Below the pieces are notes generated by a model, which saw only the letters and a program-made list of their open reading frames with translations, searched no databases and had not been told where the DNA came from. Source: Victivallales bacterium (lineage in GTDB: Bacteria; Verrucomicrobiota; Lentisphaeria; Oligosphaerales; Lenti-02). Taken from it: DNA of 38,105 nt. Below, one piece after another: positions 28,953 to 36,091 of this stretch (the first letter of the stretch is position 1; every line of letters begins with the position of its first letter). Position numbers and translations under genes: made by a program. The stretch spans positions 1-38,105 of the forward strand of contig QKCY01000026.1 of the NCBI GenBank assembly GCA_003245525.1. The letters run 5' to 3'.

Positions 28953-31022
28953 ATGTCCACCGAGTACCACGGTCTTGCTCCCCTCGGTCGGGGCGGTCTG
29001 TCGCACCGTCGGCCCACCGCACTCAGCACCTTCCATTTCGGGGCCCCCTACTACCCCGAGCACTGGTCGGCAGACGACCGGCGGGAGGATGCCGCACGGA
29101 TGGCGGAGGCGGAGTTCACGCTCGTCCGCATGGCGGAGTTCGCCTGGGACGTTCTGGAGCCGGAGGAGGGCACCTTCGATTTCTCCCTGTTCGACGAAAC
29201 CATCGCCCGCCTGGGCAAACGGGGCATCCGCACCATGCTCTGCACCCCAACGGCCACGCCTCCCCGCTGGCTGACCTTGGCCCGTCCGGACATCCTCCGG
29301 GAGGATCCCCGCGGGACCCGGATGCAGCATGGGGCCCGCCAGCACGCCTGCCACACCAATCCCTGTTTCCGCGAGTACTCCCGCCGGATCACCCAGGCCA
29401 TGGCCGACCACTATGCGGGCAACCGGCACGTCATCGCCTGGCAGACGGACAACGAGTTCAACTGCCACTTCTCCGAGTGCCACTGTCCCGCCTGCCAGGC
29501 TGGCTTCCAGGACTTCCTGCGCCGCAAGTTCAAGGGCGAGATAGCAAGGTTGAACCAGACCTGGGGAACGGCCTTCTGGGCCCAGACCTACACCGATTTC
29601 GCCCAGATTCCCACGCCCAAACCCGACCGTCCCTGCTACGACAACCCAGCGCACCGGTTGGACTACTACCGGTTCGTGCGCGAATCGGTGGCAGTCTTCC
29701 AGCACGATCAGGTCGCCATCCTGCGGGCCGCCAATCCGCAATGGTTCATCACCCACAACGGCTGTTTCCGCCATATCGACTACCGGGGGCTGTTCGGCGA
29801 GGATCTCGATGCCCTGGGCTATGATGTCTATCCTTTCTTCGATCCCGATCCCGAGCACCGTCCCTATTCGCAGGCCTTCAATCTGGACCGGGTCCGGGCT
29901 CTGACCGGCAACTTCCTGATCCCGGAACACCAGTCGGGACCAGGGGGGCAGGGGGGCTACATGCACGACACCCCCGAACCGGGCGAACTGCGGCGCATGA
30001 CCTACACCTCCATCGCGCGCGGCGCCGACGCGGTGATGTACTTCCGCTGGCGCACCTGCCGGTTTGGCGCGGAGGAGTACTGGCGCGGCATTCTGGACCA
30101 CGACAACGTGCCGCGCCGCGCCTACGACGAGGTGGCCCAGATCGGCCAGGAACTCCGTCGGCTCGGGCCTGCCGTGCTGGGAACCCATGTGCGGGTGGAT
30201 GTGGGCTTGGCAGTGGGGGATGCGGACGTGGAGGAGGCCCACGACATCCTCAGTCTGGGCCTCCCCAACCCCCGCACTATCGCCCAACGCCTCCATGAGG
30301 ACCTCAACCGGGCGGGCTACGCGGTGGGATGCGTCCATCCTGCCGACAGCTTGGGGGCCTTGTCGCTCTTCGTCATCCCGCACTGGGCCTCCTTCGATCC
30401 GGCCTGGGTTCCGGCGCTGGAGCAGTTTGTGCGCCAGGGCGGGGTCCTGGTCATCGGAGCGCGCACCGGGACCAAGGACATGAACAACAACGTGGTGGCG
30501 ACGACCGCCCCCGGCTGCCTGCGGGAGCTGGCCGGGGTGTCCGTACACGAGTACGGGCGGCAGAATGCCCCGGACAAGCGGCCCTTGCGCATCACCTACG
30601 GGGCCGATTCCGCCGCCACGGAACTCTGGTACGAAGTGCTGAAGCTGGAGGATGCGGACGAGTTGGCCACGTGGACCGGACGCCACCTCACCGGCGAGAC
30701 CGCGATCTCCCGGCGACGGATCGGGCGCGGAGCCGTCTACTATGTGGGAACCATGCTTACACCGTCCATCTGCATGCTCGTCTGGTCCCGCGTCCAACTC
30801 GACGCGCGGATCGAACAGCTCTGGCCCGGGACTCCCAGCCAGGTGGAAGTGGTGCTCCGGACCGATGGCTCCCGCCGGGTCTGGTTCTTCACGAACCGGA
30901 GCGACGAGTCCGTGCGCCTGCCCCATACGCCCACCGGGGACAACCTGCTGGACGACGACGAAGTCACCGGCGGACCCATCACCTTGGACCGGCATGGGGT
31001 CCTGATCGTGCGGGAGAGCTAG
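28953..31022 (+). CDS. GH42 beta-galactosidase
   Basis: 689 residues. Seen: FGAPYYPEHWS at the start of the barrel; IAWQTDNEFN, with E168 as acid/base; LIPEHQSGPGG, with E325 as the likely nucleophile; and a cysteine cluster CHFSECHCPAC (C171, C176, C178, C181) as in the zinc site of A-type GH42 enzymes. Domain B (about 400-600, a glutamine-amidotransferase-like fold) and a short C-terminal beta domain follow. GH42 enzymes hydrolyse beta-galactosides, often short galactan pieces, and act in the cytoplasm; no signal peptide is present. AAGGAG precedes ATG 28953. The fusion gene starts 12 bases after its stop, so they form a unit, perhaps for pectic galactan. Confidence 0.9.
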   Translation: MSTEYHGLAPLGRGGLSHRRPTALSTFHFGAPYYPEHWSADDRREDAARMAEAEFTLVRMAEFAWDVLEPEEGTFDFSLFDETIARLGKRGIRTMLCTPTATPPRWLTLARPDILREDPRGTRMQHGARQHACHTNPCFREYSRRITQAMADHYAGNRHVIAWQTDNEFNCHFSECHCPACQAGFQDFLRRKFKGEIARLNQTWGTAFWAQTYTDFAQIPTPKPDRPCYDNPAHRLDYYRFVRESVAVFQHDQVAILRAANPQWFITHNGCFRHIDYRGLFGEDLDALGYDVYPFFDPDPEHRPYSQAFNLDRVRALTGNFLIPEHQSGPGGQGGYMHDTPEPGELRRMTYTSIARGADAVMYFRWRTCRFGAEEYWRGILDHDNVPRRAYDEVAQIGQELRRLGPAVLGTHVRVDVGLAVGDADVEEAHDILSLGLPNPRTIAQRLHEDLNRAGYAVGCVHPADSLGALSLFVIPHWASFDPAWVPALEQFVRQGGVLVIGARTGTKDMNNNVVATTAPGCLRELAGVSVHEYGRQNAPDKRPLRITYGADSAATELWYEVLKLEDADELATWTGRHLTGETAISRRRIGRGAVYYVGTMLTPSICMLVWSRVQLDARIEQLWPGTPSQVEVVLRTDGSRRVWFFTNRSDESVRLPHTPTGDNLLDDDEVTGGPITLDRHGVLIVRES

Positions 31023-31034
31023 CGAGGAATGGTC

Positions 31035-34000
31035 ATGCGAGGATGCTGGATTGCCTTGGCGTTGGCCGTGTGGACGGCCCACGCGGAGGAGAGGGAATGG
31101 ACGCTGCTGTGGAGTGACTCCTTCGCCCAATCGACCAGTCACTGGGAGGTCAGGGCCGAAGGGGCTAACCAGGTGCTGGCAACCGCCTGGGAGGGCAATC
31201 CGGCAGTCTGCCTGCGGGATGTGGTGAACGCCCCCGCCCAGGCTGCGTGCAGTCTGAGCCGGGCCGTACCCGCCTTGCCGGGCGACTACCGCATCTTCTA
31301 CCGCGTCATGCTCCGGCAGGGAGAGGCAGCGGCGTTGAGCCAGGACATGGGGCTGCACTTGTTCGATCCCGGCCTGCTGTTCGATCTCTTCTTTTCCGGC
31401 GGCGAGCTGAAGACGTGGCAAGGCCAGAGCTGGGAAGGCCTGCATCCGCCCGTGAAGTGGGAGGCGGATCGCTGGTATACCGTTCAGGTCGTGCTTCACC
31501 CCGAGGAAGGCACGGCGGAGGTGTCGGTGGACGGCACGGTATCCCGGCCGGTGCGCCTGCGCCGTCCGGGGGCCGCTTTGACCCGGTTGGAGTTCGTGTC
31601 GCAACGGTATGCCACCGGGGAGCTATGGATCGACGATGTGCGGGTGGAGCATCGCCTGCCTGCCGAACTGGCCAGTCAGCCAGGTGAGGATTGGCTCCAG
31701 GCCACCCGGCGCGAGCGGGAAGAGCATTGGTTCGCCGATGCGGGTAGCACGCTGCGCTGGGGCAAGCTGCGGGGCAGGGAAGACGGGGTGGCCGTAGCCC
31801 GGCGTCTGATCACCGGGGATTTCACGGAGAACCCCATCCTCTCCTTCCGGCCCGAAGCGAGCGCCGGTGCCGACGTACGGCTGTATCTGTGTCGGGTTGC
31901 CACCGGGGAAACAGTGCCGCTCGCCATTAGCCCCACCGGAAAGTACGCCCTGTTTGCGGAGACTGGCTGGGATGGTGCCGAGGAGGTCGAACTGCTAGCG
32001 GTGCTGCGGGGGAAAGGGAGCCTCGAACTGGACGATCCCACCGTCTCCTTTCCGGTTTCGGTGGACTACCGCGATGTCGCTGCCATCAGCCCGAGACCCT
32101 ATGCCACGATGCCGGCCAGTTCGGCCTCGCGTCTACCCTTGCCCCTGGAGGCCATCGGAGCCCCCAACTCCACCGGTCCGGTTCGGTTCGGCATTCCGTT
32201 CCCGCCGGGGGGCTTGGACGGCTTGGAGAATCTCGTCCTCTGCGACGAGACCGCCCTGCGGAAGGCCCTCCCCTTGCAGACTCGCTGCCTTTCCGCCTGG
32301 CCGGACGGCAGTATCCGCTGGCTCCTGGTGGACTCCTGGCTCGACCTGCCTGCCACCGGGCGGCGGACGCTCGTTCTTGGCCGGGGAAAGCCGACGGACG
32401 GCGAGCGGGTTGGCAACGCCACCCCGGACCACATTACGCTCCAGGGAAAGGGATTCGCGATTGACCTTCCCCGCCAGGGGTTCCCTTCCTTGCTGGGGCT
32501 TCCCGCCCCCAGCAACGGCACCTGGGACTTCGTGATCGAGGCCGATGGGGTGACCTATCGTGCCAGTGCGGGAACCGCCGAAACCCGGCTGGAAGACGCG
32601 GGGAGCGTCCGTGCCACGGCGGTCGTTGCCGGTACCCTGGCGGCAGGGGACGACGCTCCCTTCCGCTACGAACTGCGCGTCACGACGTATGCCGATAGCA
32701 CCAGCGTGGACATACAACCCACCTTTCTGCTGGACGGTCAGAGCAGCGAGCGCAACCTGGGCCGGGTGAGTCTGCTGTTCGGCATGGCGGGGGAACCCGG
32801 TCCGGTGGCTCTAGGCGGGGACGAACCGCTGCTGTGCAATCGCACTGAGGGCCAGGTCGTGACCCTCTGCCAGGACCGACTGGACCGCTATGAAGCGACT
32901 CTGGGAGACAATTCGCTCGGGAGCGGGCAACGGGCCGAGGGATGGGTTCTGACCCAGGGGATCGGCTTGGCTGTCCGCCGATTTGCCGAGCAATTCCGCA
33001 AGGGCTTCGTGGTCGATGATCACGCGCTGCGCCTGGATCTATGGGCTCCCGGCGAGAGTCGCCGCTTCGGCAACGGTGCCGCCAAAACCCACGATGTCCG
33101 CTTGGCGTTCGGGATGGCGGGGTGGAAGGACGCCCAACAATTGGCGCGCCAGGTGAACGAGCCGACCTTCCTGTATCCCGGCGGCAAGTGGCTTGCCGAA
33201 TCCGGGGCGCTGGGCCCCTTCTCCCTCCCTGACGATTCCCTGGCAGATCTGGACAAGTTCTACGAAGCGGCGTGCGAACGGCGGCTGTCCGAGGCGGAAC
33301 GGCGTCCCGACCGTTCGTTTGGCCTCGTGGACTATGGCGAGACGAACCACATCAACAGCGAGATCGATGCGGCGGTGGCTCTCTACCTGCAATGGGCGCG
33401 CACCGGGCAGCGCCGATGGCTGGATGCCGCGTTGGACTGGTCCCGCCACAGCCAGGACATCGACGTCTGCCAGGCCAGTCCGAATCCACGGGAAATCGGC
33501 ATCCACCACAACCACTACGTTTCGGACCACAACAACGGGGGCCTTACCCTTACCCATACCTGGATTCGTGGCCAGCTTTTCCGCTACTACTTCACGGGTG
33601 ACCAGCGGTCCCTGCTGGTCGCCGACCTGGCCGGGCGGGCTTTCCGGCGGAACATGACGGCGGAAGGACAGCTCTTCGATGGCGGCAATCGGCGGGAAGG
33701 AATCGGGTCCCGCGCCTACGGACGGGCGGACTGGGCGCTCTGCGAACTCTACCAGGCGACGGGGAATCCCGCATGTCTCGATACCATGACCCGGCTCAAT
33801 GCCTATCTGGCGGCCAGTCTGCGGCCCGATGGCGCCCTCCCCGCCAGCCATGATGCCAACGGGGTCTGGACGACCACCGACGAATGTCCCCACATGGCGG
33901 CCATCTGTGCGGTGGGACTGGCTCGGTCGGCCCGTCTTCTGCCACAGACGCAAGCCCGGAATGCGATTGCCGCGCTGGAGCGCATCGCGCGCTGGGAACT

Positions 34001-35237
34001 CAGTCGTGGGGCCATGCCGAACAAGCTCGGCATCATGTACCACAACTACCCCGGCGGCGAGGTGATCCACTATGTGGACGCCACCAGCAACATGCTGGAG
34101 GCTTGGATCTCCCTCTATGGCTTCACCGGCAATGCGCTCTACCGGGATTGGGCGGAGACCATGTACGACAGCCTGATCGAGCAGGGCGACCGCTGGCAGC
34201 ACGACTGGACCATGGGGGCTCGCGGGCTCCTGTTCTACCAGGCACTCCGCACCGCCGCGCCGCCCCGTCTCCCGCGGATTCCCCCCTGGTCGGACGCCCC
34301 ACCGGGTGCCGACGCGGCATTTCTGGCAAGCTGTCAGAACGAGGATGGTGGATTCGGCGTAGTACCGAGTCTGCCGTCCGAGATGGATTCCACCTACCGG
34401 GCAGTGGACGCACTCCGCCTGCTCGGTGCCAGCCCCCTTCTGCCGGAGCGTTGTGGCGCCTGGATTCTGTCCTGCCGGGACAGCCAGGGCGGCTACGCGG
34501 AGGAGCCCCGCTGGTACCCGAATGTCGCGTGGACCTGCTTTGCCGTGGAATCGCTGGCCGCCCTGGGGATTCGCCCCCCTCACCCCGAGGATACGGTCGC
34601 CTGGTTGCGCTCTGCCTTCAACGCCGATGGCGGTTGTGGTTCATCCCCGGTCAAAGGGCCTCTCGCCTACCATCCGGCGTGGTCGTCCACCACGGAGTAC
34701 ACGGCATATGCGATGCGTGCTCTTGCCCTGCTTGGTGCCGAAGCGCCCGACCCGCTGGCAACCCGGGCATTCCTGTTGCAGCGAGGGGTGGATGGAGGCG
34801 GCTTCAACGACAGCCGTGGCAGATCCACCTTGGGGTACACGGCCTTGGCATTGGAAACCCTGCGCCGATTGCCCGATCCAACCAACCAACCAATCTACAC
34901 CGACAGCATGGTGGTCTGGCTCGCGTTGCTCCGGCAAGACAACGGCGGGTACGGCTGGTTGGGAGCGAAGCAGCCCAATCTGCGCAACACCTACGAAATG
35001 CTGGACATCCGCCGTTCCATCCAGGCGACCCTGACAGAATCCCAACTCACCCATTCCCGGCGGTACGTTCTCCATTGCCGCGCCCCGGAGGGGGGATTCG
35101 GTTACCGCCCGGGTTTCATCCCGACAGTTCTCCACACGTGGTATGGGGTGCGGTCCGCCATCATGCTCGGCCCGGAGTCCGAGCCTACGACGGAAACGCC
35201 GAACGCTCCAAGGCCGCGCACAGAAAGTGATAGATAG
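31035..35237 (+). CDS. Secreted YetA-like (exo-rhamnogalacturonan lyase-like) protein fused to prenyltransferase-type alpha/alpha repeats
   Basis: 1400 residues. Signal peptide MRGCWIALALAVWTAHA. Then a concanavalin-like beta-sandwich (about 20-210), a linker region, and from about 385 a YetA/PcRGLX N-terminal RIFT barrel (GIPFPPGGLDGLENL, LQTRCLSAWPDGSIRWLLVD), a central beta part, and an alpha/alpha toroid (NHINSEIDAAVALYLQWA, IHHNHYVSDHNNGGLTL). The last ~300 residues hold six repeats of the form xLxCQxxDGGFG spaced about 46-57 residues, as in prenyltransferase beta subunits; the final GGFGYRPGFIPTVLHTWYG keeps the zinc-type His but the Asp-x-Cys ligands are absent. ATG 31035 fits GAGG better than 31029. 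The end overlaps the convergent SIS gene by 53 bases. Confidence 0.8.
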   Translation: MRGCWIALALAVWTAHAEEREWTLLWSDSFAQSTSHWEVRAEGANQVLATAWEGNPAVCLRDVVNAPAQAACSLSRAVPALPGDYRIFYRVMLRQGEAAALSQDMGLHLFDPGLLFDLFFSGGELKTWQGQSWEGLHPPVKWEADRWYTVQVVLHPEEGTAEVSVDGTVSRPVRLRRPGAALTRLEFVSQRYATGELWIDDVRVEHRLPAELASQPGEDWLQATRREREEHWFADAGSTLRWGKLRGREDGVAVARRLITGDFTENPILSFRPEASAGADVRLYLCRVATGETVPLAISPTGKYALFAETGWDGAEEVELLAVLRGKGSLELDDPTVSFPVSVDYRDVAAISPRPYATMPASSASRLPLPLEAIGAPNSTGPVRFGIPFPPGGLDGLENLVLCDETALRKALPLQTRCLSAWPDGSIRWLLVDSWLDLPATGRRTLVLGRGKPTDGERVGNATPDHITLQGKGFAIDLPRQGFPSLLGLPAPSNGTWDFVIEADGVTYRASAGTAETRLEDAGSVRATAVVAGTLAAGDDAPFRYELRVTTYADSTSVDIQPTFLLDGQSSERNLGRVSLLFGMAGEPGPVALGGDEPLLCNRTEGQVVTLCQDRLDRYEATLGDNSLGSGQRAEGWVLTQGIGLAVRRFAEQFRKGFVVDDHALRLDLWAPGESRRFGNGAAKTHDVRLAFGMAGWKDAQQLARQVNEPTFLYPGGKWLAESGALGPFSLPDDSLADLDKFYEAACERRLSEAERRPDRSFGLVDYGETNHINSEIDAAVALYLQWARTGQRRWLDAALDWSRHSQDIDVCQASPNPREIGIHHNHYVSDHNNGGLTLTHTWIRGQLFRYYFTGDQRSLLVADLAGRAFRRNMTAEGQLFDGGNRREGIGSRAYGRADWALCELYQATGNPACLDTMTRLNAYLAASLRPDGALPASHDANGVWTTTDECPHMAAICAVGLARSARLLPQTQARNAIAALERIARWELSRGAMPNKLGIMYHNYPGGEVIHYVDATSNMLEAWISLYGFTGNALYRDWAETMYDSLIEQGDRWQHDWTMGARGLLFYQALRTAAPPRLPRIPPWSDAPPGADAAFLASCQNEDGGFGVVPSLPSEMDSTYRAVDALRLLGASPLLPERCGAWILSCRDSQGGYAEEPRWYPNVAWTCFAVESLAALGIRPPHPEDTVAWLRSAFNADGGCGSSPVKGPLAYHPAWSSTTEYTAYAMRALALLGAEAPDPLATRAFLLQRGVDGGGFNDSRGRSTLGYTALALETLRRLPDPTNQPIYTDSMVVWLALLRQDNGGYGWLGAKQPNLRNTYEMLDIRRSIQATLTESQLTHSRRYVLHCRAPEGGFGYRPGFIPTVLHTWYGVRSAIMLGPESEPTTETPNAPRPRTESDR

Positions 35238-35811
35238 CGACGTGGTGCTCCTGGACCTCAAAGGTCTCGTCGGAGGGGGCTCGGACACAGACGTCGGCCA
35301 AGGCGGCAAGGCGGCCCCCCTTGGCTCCGGTCAGACCGATGATGTGGAGCCCCTTGGCCTTGGCAGCGACTGCGGCAAGGGCTACACTACGGGAGTTGCC
35401 GGAGGTGGATATACCCCAGAAGACATCGCCCGGCCGGCCATAGCCCCACACCTGTTGGGCGAAGGGAAGGTCGCCCCCGTTGTCGTTCGCAACCGCCGTG
35501 CTGAGAGCGAGATGACCCGTCAAAGCAATGGCTGGCATCGCTCCCTGGAGACGTTCCGCGAGGTAGCCCCCCAACTCGGTATCCAGAACCGTTAACGCCG
35601 ACCGTTCCGCAACCGATACGGGACGCCGCAGAAGGAAGCCCTTCATCAACTCCCCCACAATATGCTCGGCATCCGCGGCACTGCCGCCATTTCCAGCAAC
35701 GAGGAGCTTGCCCCCCTGGGCGTAGGATGCTTGCAGGAGAGCCAAAGCAGAGGCAATGTCAGCCTTGCAGCCGGAGAGCTGAGGATGGGTCTCGATGAAC
35801 ATATCTAACAT
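35185..35811 (-). CDS. SIS-domain sugar isomerase, phosphoheptose isomerase-like (GmhA/DiaA family)
   Basis: 208 residues from ATG 35811. LLVAGNGGSAADAEHIVGELM and WGISTSGNSRSV are the two phosphosugar-binding loops of the SIS fold; PSDETFEVQEHHVAIYHFLC contains the conserved Gln and His region of GmhA-type enzymes. GmhA makes heptose precursors for lipopolysaccharide; the related DiaA binds DnaA and controls initiation. Both could fit, given the envelope genes in the window and dnaN across the AT-rich spacer. Other starts are TTG 35847 and ATG 35802; none has a strong ribosome-binding site. The 3' end overlaps the convergent fusion gene by 53 bases. Confidence 0.82.
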   Translation of the reverse strand: MLDMFIETHPQLSGCKADIASALALLQASYAQGGKLLVAGNGGSAADAEHIVGELMKGFLLRRPVSVAERSALTVLDTELGGYLAERLQGAMPAIALTGHLALSTAVANDNGGDLPFAQQVWGYGRPGDVFWGISTSGNSRSVALAAVAAKAKGLHIIGLTGAKGGRLAALADVCVRAPSDETFEVQEHHVAIYHFLCAALERSAFPS

Positions 35812-36091
35812 ATTTGAATCCAATCTATTACAACCTTTGTAGACCAACTGTCCAAGATATTGACAAGAGACCTGTTGAAAACCCTTCTCAACCCTCCTGA
35901 TAAAATGTCGGAAACCTTGTCCTCAACTTATTCACAGGGTCGTGAACCGGGTTACTATGGCTGTAAGTCACTGGTGCTGTCCACCCGTTCCGCTCTCCGG
36001 TTGACTTGTGCCCATCCCTAATAATATTGATTCTCTATAAAAGAAGAGTAGTTTCAATCCCTCTTGGCTGTAAACAACAGGAACTGCCACC
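35812..36091. other. AT-rich spacer before dnaN with a DnaA-box-like site; candidate origin region
   Basis: About 280 bases between divergent genes, AT-richer than the surroundings. TTATTCACA (35928-35936) fits the TTWTNCACA DnaA-box consensus, and TGTTGAAAA (35873-35881) is a degenerate box on the other strand. The region lies beside dnaN-recF, which often borders oriC, but dnaA is not seen and only one good box is present. Most genes to the left point toward this site, which argues against a bidirectional origin here. Confidence 0.35.
36001..36027 (+). promoter_or_regulatory. Candidate dnaN promoter
   Basis: TTGACT (36001-36006) resembles a sigma-70 -35 box, with TAATAT (36022-36027) 15 bases away as a -10. 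The 15-base spacing is short. A further TATAAA lies at 36036-36041. Placed about 65 bases before the dnaN start. Confidence 0.4.

Follow-up and report, generated by a model that had tools for sequence, protein, structure and literature searches.

A secreted PL26-like protein fused to a prenyltransferase-type toroid in a Victivallales bacterium

The fusion gene and its PL26-like core

We analyzed a stretch of 38,105 nucleotides (the window) from contig QKCY01000026.1 of a Victivallales bacterium, whose 6.7-Mb source genome is fragmented into 607 contigs. At 31035..35237 on the plus strand, where all features below lie unless stated otherwise, the window contains a gene predicted to encode a secreted protein of 1400 amino acids, in which a PL26-like region is followed by a C-terminal prenyltransferase-type toroid. 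This assignment is supported by the open frame, by Pfam matches, and by retention of the same architecture in three orthologues (loci L131, L132, and L150). A single uninterrupted frame runs to 35237 from an ATG at either 31029 or 31035. The sequence GAGGA at 31024-31028 directly abuts the first of these and lies 6 bases ahead of the second; because the latter spacing is better, we consider ATG 31035 the better start. Signal peptides were judged by eye from the sequence, with no predictor run. Residues 1-17 (31035..31085) read MRGCWIALALAVWTAHA, ending in AHA before EE, and all four fusion proteins (the query and its three orthologues) have signal-like hydrophobic N-termini, in agreement with the initial annotation of this DNA, which had placed the protein outside the cytosol.

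The core resembling the exo-rhamnogalacturonan lyase PcRGLX spans residues ~366-1075 and shows the three-domain fold of PL26 by Pfam, structural model, and profile comparison. Its RIFT-barrel domain (~residues 369-455; 32139..32399) was recognized by PcRGLX_1st (PF19501) at residues 376-429 (E 1.1e-9 with the whole protein, above the curated cut-off) and by the strands of the model. The central beta-sandwich (~residues 460-690; 32412..33104) matched PcRGLX_2nd (PF21345) weakly in the query (E 0.0027) and more strongly in L150 (E 6.6e-7), and is present in the model. The first alpha/alpha toroid, which is the putative catalytic domain (~residues 697-1074; 33123..34256), gave no Pfam match to the third PcRGLX domain from the query sequence alone, and was assigned from a profile of its relatives, the model, and Foldseek. 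That profile, alignment A1, comprises the query and 33 PL26-like homologues (residues ~340-1060) from genomes of the same phylum; PcRGLX_1st was detected in 29 of these 34 members, PcRGLX_2nd in 26, and PcRGLX_3rd in 21. Compared with the solved PL26 enzyme of Penicillium chrysogenum (5xq3), it scored E 1.7e-48. An AlphaFold model of both toroids, covering residues 331-1400 (1070 residues), had a mean predicted local distance difference test score (pLDDT) of 84.7 and a predicted template-modeling score (pTM) of 0.86; its best solved match in Foldseek was again 5xq3, and ranks 1-13 were all PL26 entries.

Ten residues that are invariant or nearly so in A1 are all kept in the query (N774, E776, R789, H805, D810, H827, H832, H841, R893, and Y1002). 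The first eight form a polar cluster (33354..33557) that is conserved in PL26-like relatives, and PcRGLX has identical residues at the aligned positions of the first seven. Because the relatives' profile and the fold both match 5xq3 and this cluster is retained, the core is PL26-like by fold and conserved residues, and we regard it as a putative lyase; the PcRGLX-like region of the initial annotation is thus borne out. The fusion protein shares with PcRGLX the succession of RIFT barrel, beta-sandwich, and alpha/alpha toroid, as well as the N, E, R, H, D, H, H cluster; it differs in being a mere 15% identical by structural alignment, in the core residues H772 and H953 that are particular to the fusion clade, and in the addition of a beta domain, itself optional, at the N-terminus and of the toroid at the C-terminus. 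The 33 toroid-free proteins of the phylum have a homologous lyase part with an identical polar cluster, but are only ~17-24% identical to the query and carry other C-terminal modules or none. One genome with an orthologue, G291 (14.1 Mb; L131), contains about 20 PL26-like matches, many of them in open frames of 1200-1700 amino acids.

The N-terminal beta-rich module (residues 18-210; 31086..31664) is probably a jelly-roll or LamG-like binding domain. It had no Pfam match, the nearest being Sialidase-like_CBM at E 0.11, and appears to be optional because the alignment shows it to be absent from L132.

The prenyltransferase-type toroid

The second alpha/alpha toroid (~residues 1090-1380; 34302..35174) consists of six prenyltransferase-type repeats. 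Prenyltrans (PF00432) matched the whole protein with E 5.1e-19, above the curated cut-off, and the C-terminal part alone with E 1.3e-21, and AlphaFold predicted six outer/inner helix pairs (pLDDT 85.5), that is, the six-repeat alpha/alpha barrel of a protein prenyltransferase beta subunit. The initial annotation had read six GGF/Y repeats of this type and had recommended a separate profile search and structure prediction for this region; both returned the expected fold, with the second toroid confidently predicted, and the C-terminus matched no lyase domain. The nearest solved folds are the beta subunits of Rab geranylgeranyltransferase (RabGGTase; 1dce, 6o60), which share the barrel and the GG-loop repeats at about 21% identity, a template-modeling score of about 0.7, and a Foldseek E of about 1e-13; farnesyltransferase beta and squalene-hopene cyclases follow, and a profile search concurs. 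Unlike RabGGTase beta, the fused toroid is without the Asp/Cys/His zinc site, is predicted to be secreted, and is joined to a lyase-like core.

With the squalene-hopene and terpene cyclases (PF13243, PF13249) the toroid shares a superfamily and its repeats. The scores of the query against these families are below the curated cut-offs, as is that against TIGR01787 (28.8 vs 322.7 bits); some orthologues do exceed the Pfam cut-offs for PF13243/PF13249. An [E/D]MDST sequence in repeat 1 recalls, in what we take to be the corresponding register, the DxDDT of terpene cyclases. The DxDD motif of class II terpene and squalene cyclases was, however, not found in any of the four fusion proteins, all of which have [E/D]MDS, with Ser in place of the fourth Asp. 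The fused domain differs from these cyclases also in forming one barrel rather than two and in its secretion.

The zinc ligands of protein prenyltransferases were sought by profile alignment to RabGGTase. The position of the ligand Asp is Asn or Thr in the fusion toroids, and that of the Cys is an Arg (R1317; 34983..34985) in all four sequences, consistent with the earlier remark that the Asp-x-Cys ligands could not be seen. The resemblance to RabGGTase around the zinc His, which the initial annotation had also pointed out, is real in the query (TVLHTWYG vs DPFHTLFG), but is not conserved: where the query has the candidate H1367 (35133..35135), the three orthologues have Gly, Ala, and Ala, so that only the query keeps a ligand. 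Since none of the three positions is retained across the fusion clade, prenyl transfer by the C-terminal toroid is not supported by these residues.

Conservation within the toroid was judged from the four fusion proteins, and cavity geometry from helix positions rather than from model coordinates. Invariant residues make up 36/93 positions of the GG loops and 20/54 of the inner-helix N-termini, but 7/60 of the outer helices. Those at the rim fall mainly in repeats 1-3 and 6, and form an aromatic and polar set: D1118, R1122, E1157, W1160, N1163, W1166, Y1212, H1213, W1216, Y1222, R1317, W1369, and Y1370. A conserved YHPxW loop, modeled with low confidence, precedes the third inner helix. To judge from this pattern, the rim looks like a live site rather than a decayed one.

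Distribution of the fusion and related toroids

When 48 genomes from the same order were searched, the fusion turned up in G291 and G296 besides the source genome, with full-length identities to the query of 45-46%; the initial annotation had proposed looking for it in other Lentisphaerota. A further case, at 48% identity, came from an alignment-based contig scan and belongs to Candidatus Zipacnadia AB_3033_Bin_153 (Armatimonadota); the scan had given no match with the single query protein, and an alignment of three orthologues then recovered it. The fusion was confined to the source genome, G291, and G296 among 198 genomes of the class, and to AB_3033_Bin_153 among 46 genomes of the class of Zipacnadia; G297, a congener of the source genome, is without it. 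In a tree of the lyase part, the four fusion proteins formed one clade (support 100/100), inside which the Zipacnadia sequence nested beside that of G291, a placement that implies either transfer between phyla or a misbinned 5.9-kb contig. The fusion is real, has one origin, and is conserved across four or more uncultured bacteria, and its clade constitutes a distinct PL26-like subfamily with core residues of its own. A search of the available literature and our genome sampling yielded no other case of a polysaccharide lyase with a prenyltransferase-type toroid attached. The fusion is a new domain architecture, whose function is predicted from sequence and structural models.

No hidden toroid was found in the 33 other PL26-like proteins of the phylum by hmmsearch without filters. 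Of these relatives, 24 extend beyond the lyase part by 180-335 residues, and in no case is the extension this toroid. Extra C-terminal modules are thus common on PL26-like proteins, whereas a prenyltransferase-type toroid in that position is new; that the slot is so often filled favors an accessory role. A phylum-wide toroid search with a single sequence returned only a distant, secreted toroid in genome G161. This protein (L057:8014-10137), whose toroid is the closest among the sampled genomes of the phylum apart from those of the fusion clade, looks secreted and combines prenyltransferase-type repeats with a C-terminal part that has no assignment.

Standalone PF00432 toroids of ~300 amino acids belong to the same domain family as the fused toroid and are perhaps the ancestral stock from which it came. 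Of 13 loci that we inspected, 8 have the toroid gene directly adjoining one for a polyprenyl synthetase (L056:683-1576, in the source genome itself, and L106, L108, L111, L123, L124, L161, and L162). These loci are from PVC (Planctomycetes-Verrucomicrobia-Chlamydiae) bacteria and Armatimonadota, and the two products are possibly an unassigned isoprenoid enzyme pair. At L123:2028-3761, the polyprenyl synthetase that adjoins the toroid carries a fused DUF116 domain. The standalone proteins (compared at L056, L106, L108, L123, L124, L161, and L162) differ from the fused toroid in being unfused, in having no evident signal peptide, and in their acidic motifs: they have in common SDLYYT, D-x-L-S/C-T in repeat 5, and D-x-E-Y in repeat 6, the last two of which are absent from the fused toroid.

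Gene neighborhood and proposed function

Upstream of the fusion gene, and ending 12 bases before it on the same strand, lies a gene for a GH42 beta-galactosidase (28953..31022; PF02449, E 3.6e-118) in which no signal peptide was seen; the two genes are likely co-transcribed. A FAD-linked oxidase gene precedes the GH42 gene, and a SIS-domain gene (35185-35847, minus strand) converges on the fusion gene from the other side, its end overlapping the final 20 codons. The C-terminal tail of the fusion protein in this region (~20 residues; 35175..35237) has no counterpart in the orthologues. Gene neighborhoods were compared over short stretches only. A conserved operon partner was considered and rejected, as the gene upstream at L132 encodes an SSF symporter that is not homologous to GH42. 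The genes flanking the Zipacnadia fusion are glycosidase-like (GHL10 and GH123 domains). In G291 a protein of 1242 amino acids without a Pfam match (L131:3416-7141, minus strand), which by eye resembles a GH42-type glycosidase, is encoded next to the fusion gene in divergent orientation.

The function that we favor, with confidence that is evenly balanced, is that of a secreted PL26-like lyase whose second toroid serves as a glycan-binding or positioning module. The core would cleave a uronic-acid-containing polysaccharide outside the cell through beta-elimination, in which the polar cluster common to it and PcRGLX would be used, and its substrate would be rhamnogalacturonan I (RG-I) or a related marine polymer. 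The second toroid would represent an isoprenoid enzyme scaffold turned into a carbohydrate-binding or substrate-positioning module, the aromatic and polar rim of which would grip the chain near the lyase cleft. After import of the products, the enzyme encoded by the neighboring GH42 gene would strip galactose from their side chains intracellularly. Several observations weigh against this proposal. We know of no carbohydrate-binding module with a prenyltransferase-type toroid fold, and the better-known members of the toroid superfamily bind isoprenoids, peptides, or cobalamin; an aromatic-lined cavity would fit hydrophobic ligands as well as sugars. In the core, too, the fusion clade deviates from the PL26 pattern at several positions (H772 for W, H953 for F). 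In none of the three other genomes was a GH42 gene recognized as a neighbor of the fusion gene, L150 being a short contig, and the record names of the orthologues point to aquatic or sediment sources, which suggests that plant RG-I is not an obvious substrate. RG-I is therefore a lead only, since it derives from the family and from a GH42 neighbor that the orthologues do not recognizably share.

The initial annotation had left a choice between a binding or structural module and a new toroid enzyme, either of which would fit our results. It is possible, though we think it doubtful, that the second toroid has an extracellular enzymatic activity of its own, new to the prenyltransferase fold, such as that of a glycan lyase, hydrolase, or epimerase, making the protein bifunctional with two toroid active sites. 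The residues conserved at the mouth are of catalytic type (D1118, E1157, H1213, E1221 or Asp, Y1222, and R1317), they concentrate in repeats 1-3 and 6 rather than in the outer helices, the YHPxW loop, albeit of low model confidence, is conserved before the third inner helix, and alpha/alpha toroids are common catalytic folds among glycosidases and lyases; a binding site would, however, be just as likely to conserve such residues, no structurally solved enzyme of this branch is known to act on sugars, and the solved structures nearest in fold are without exception prenyltransferases or terpene cyclases. That the domain would specifically be an extracellular carbohydrate-active enzyme on the prenyltransferase/terpene-cyclase fold, with a second, independent active site, we hold to be slightly more doubtful; were it so, the chemistry would be new for the fold, and there would be a new CAZy family with this domain as its first member. 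A ligand-free structural or dimerization module that packs on the lyase and stabilizes or oligomerizes it seems rather unlikely: the pTM of the two-toroid model does suggest rigid docking, and bulky C-terminal appendages are common in PL26-like relatives, but the invariants line the mouth, in loops and inner-helix starts, instead of covering the outer helices.

Homology to the standalone toroids encoded beside polyprenyl synthetases, the conserved aromatic-rich cavity, and the ancestry of isoprenoid binding in this fold would suit a toroid that binds a lipid or isoprenoid (a hopanoid or lipid-linked sugar) and so tethers the lyase to the membrane or to a glycolipid substrate. We judge this unlikely, given the secreted location and the absence of the acidic D-x-L-S/C-T and D-x-E-Y residues. 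A genuine enzyme of the protein prenyltransferase beta type acting outside the cytosol is very improbable: RabGGTase beta is the best match in both sequence and fold, and the His of the query aligns to the zinc His, but the residues of the orthologues at all three ligand positions refute zinc-dependent transfer, and prenyl diphosphates are not expected where the protein is secreted. Fragmentation of the source assembly could have produced a frame error or a join of two genes, an explanation that is scarcely credible in view of uninterrupted fusions, 45-48% identical, in three independent metagenome assemblies. If the toroid does bind or cleave glycans, a fold associated with isoprenoid chemistry would acquire a sugar-active role, and a functional handle would be gained on the unassigned secreted PF00432 proteins of PVC bacteria.

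A gene for a secreted DUF6288/terpene-cyclase-like toroid, preceded by one for a coiled protein of ~1000 amino acids, occurs near the fusion gene at L132 (L132:1171-5240). We judged their proximity to the fusion to be incidental: the toroid gene and its 1025-amino-acid neighbor resemble a pair elsewhere in the source genome (L003), and the arrangement (at L132 and at L003/L075) recurs in two genomes.

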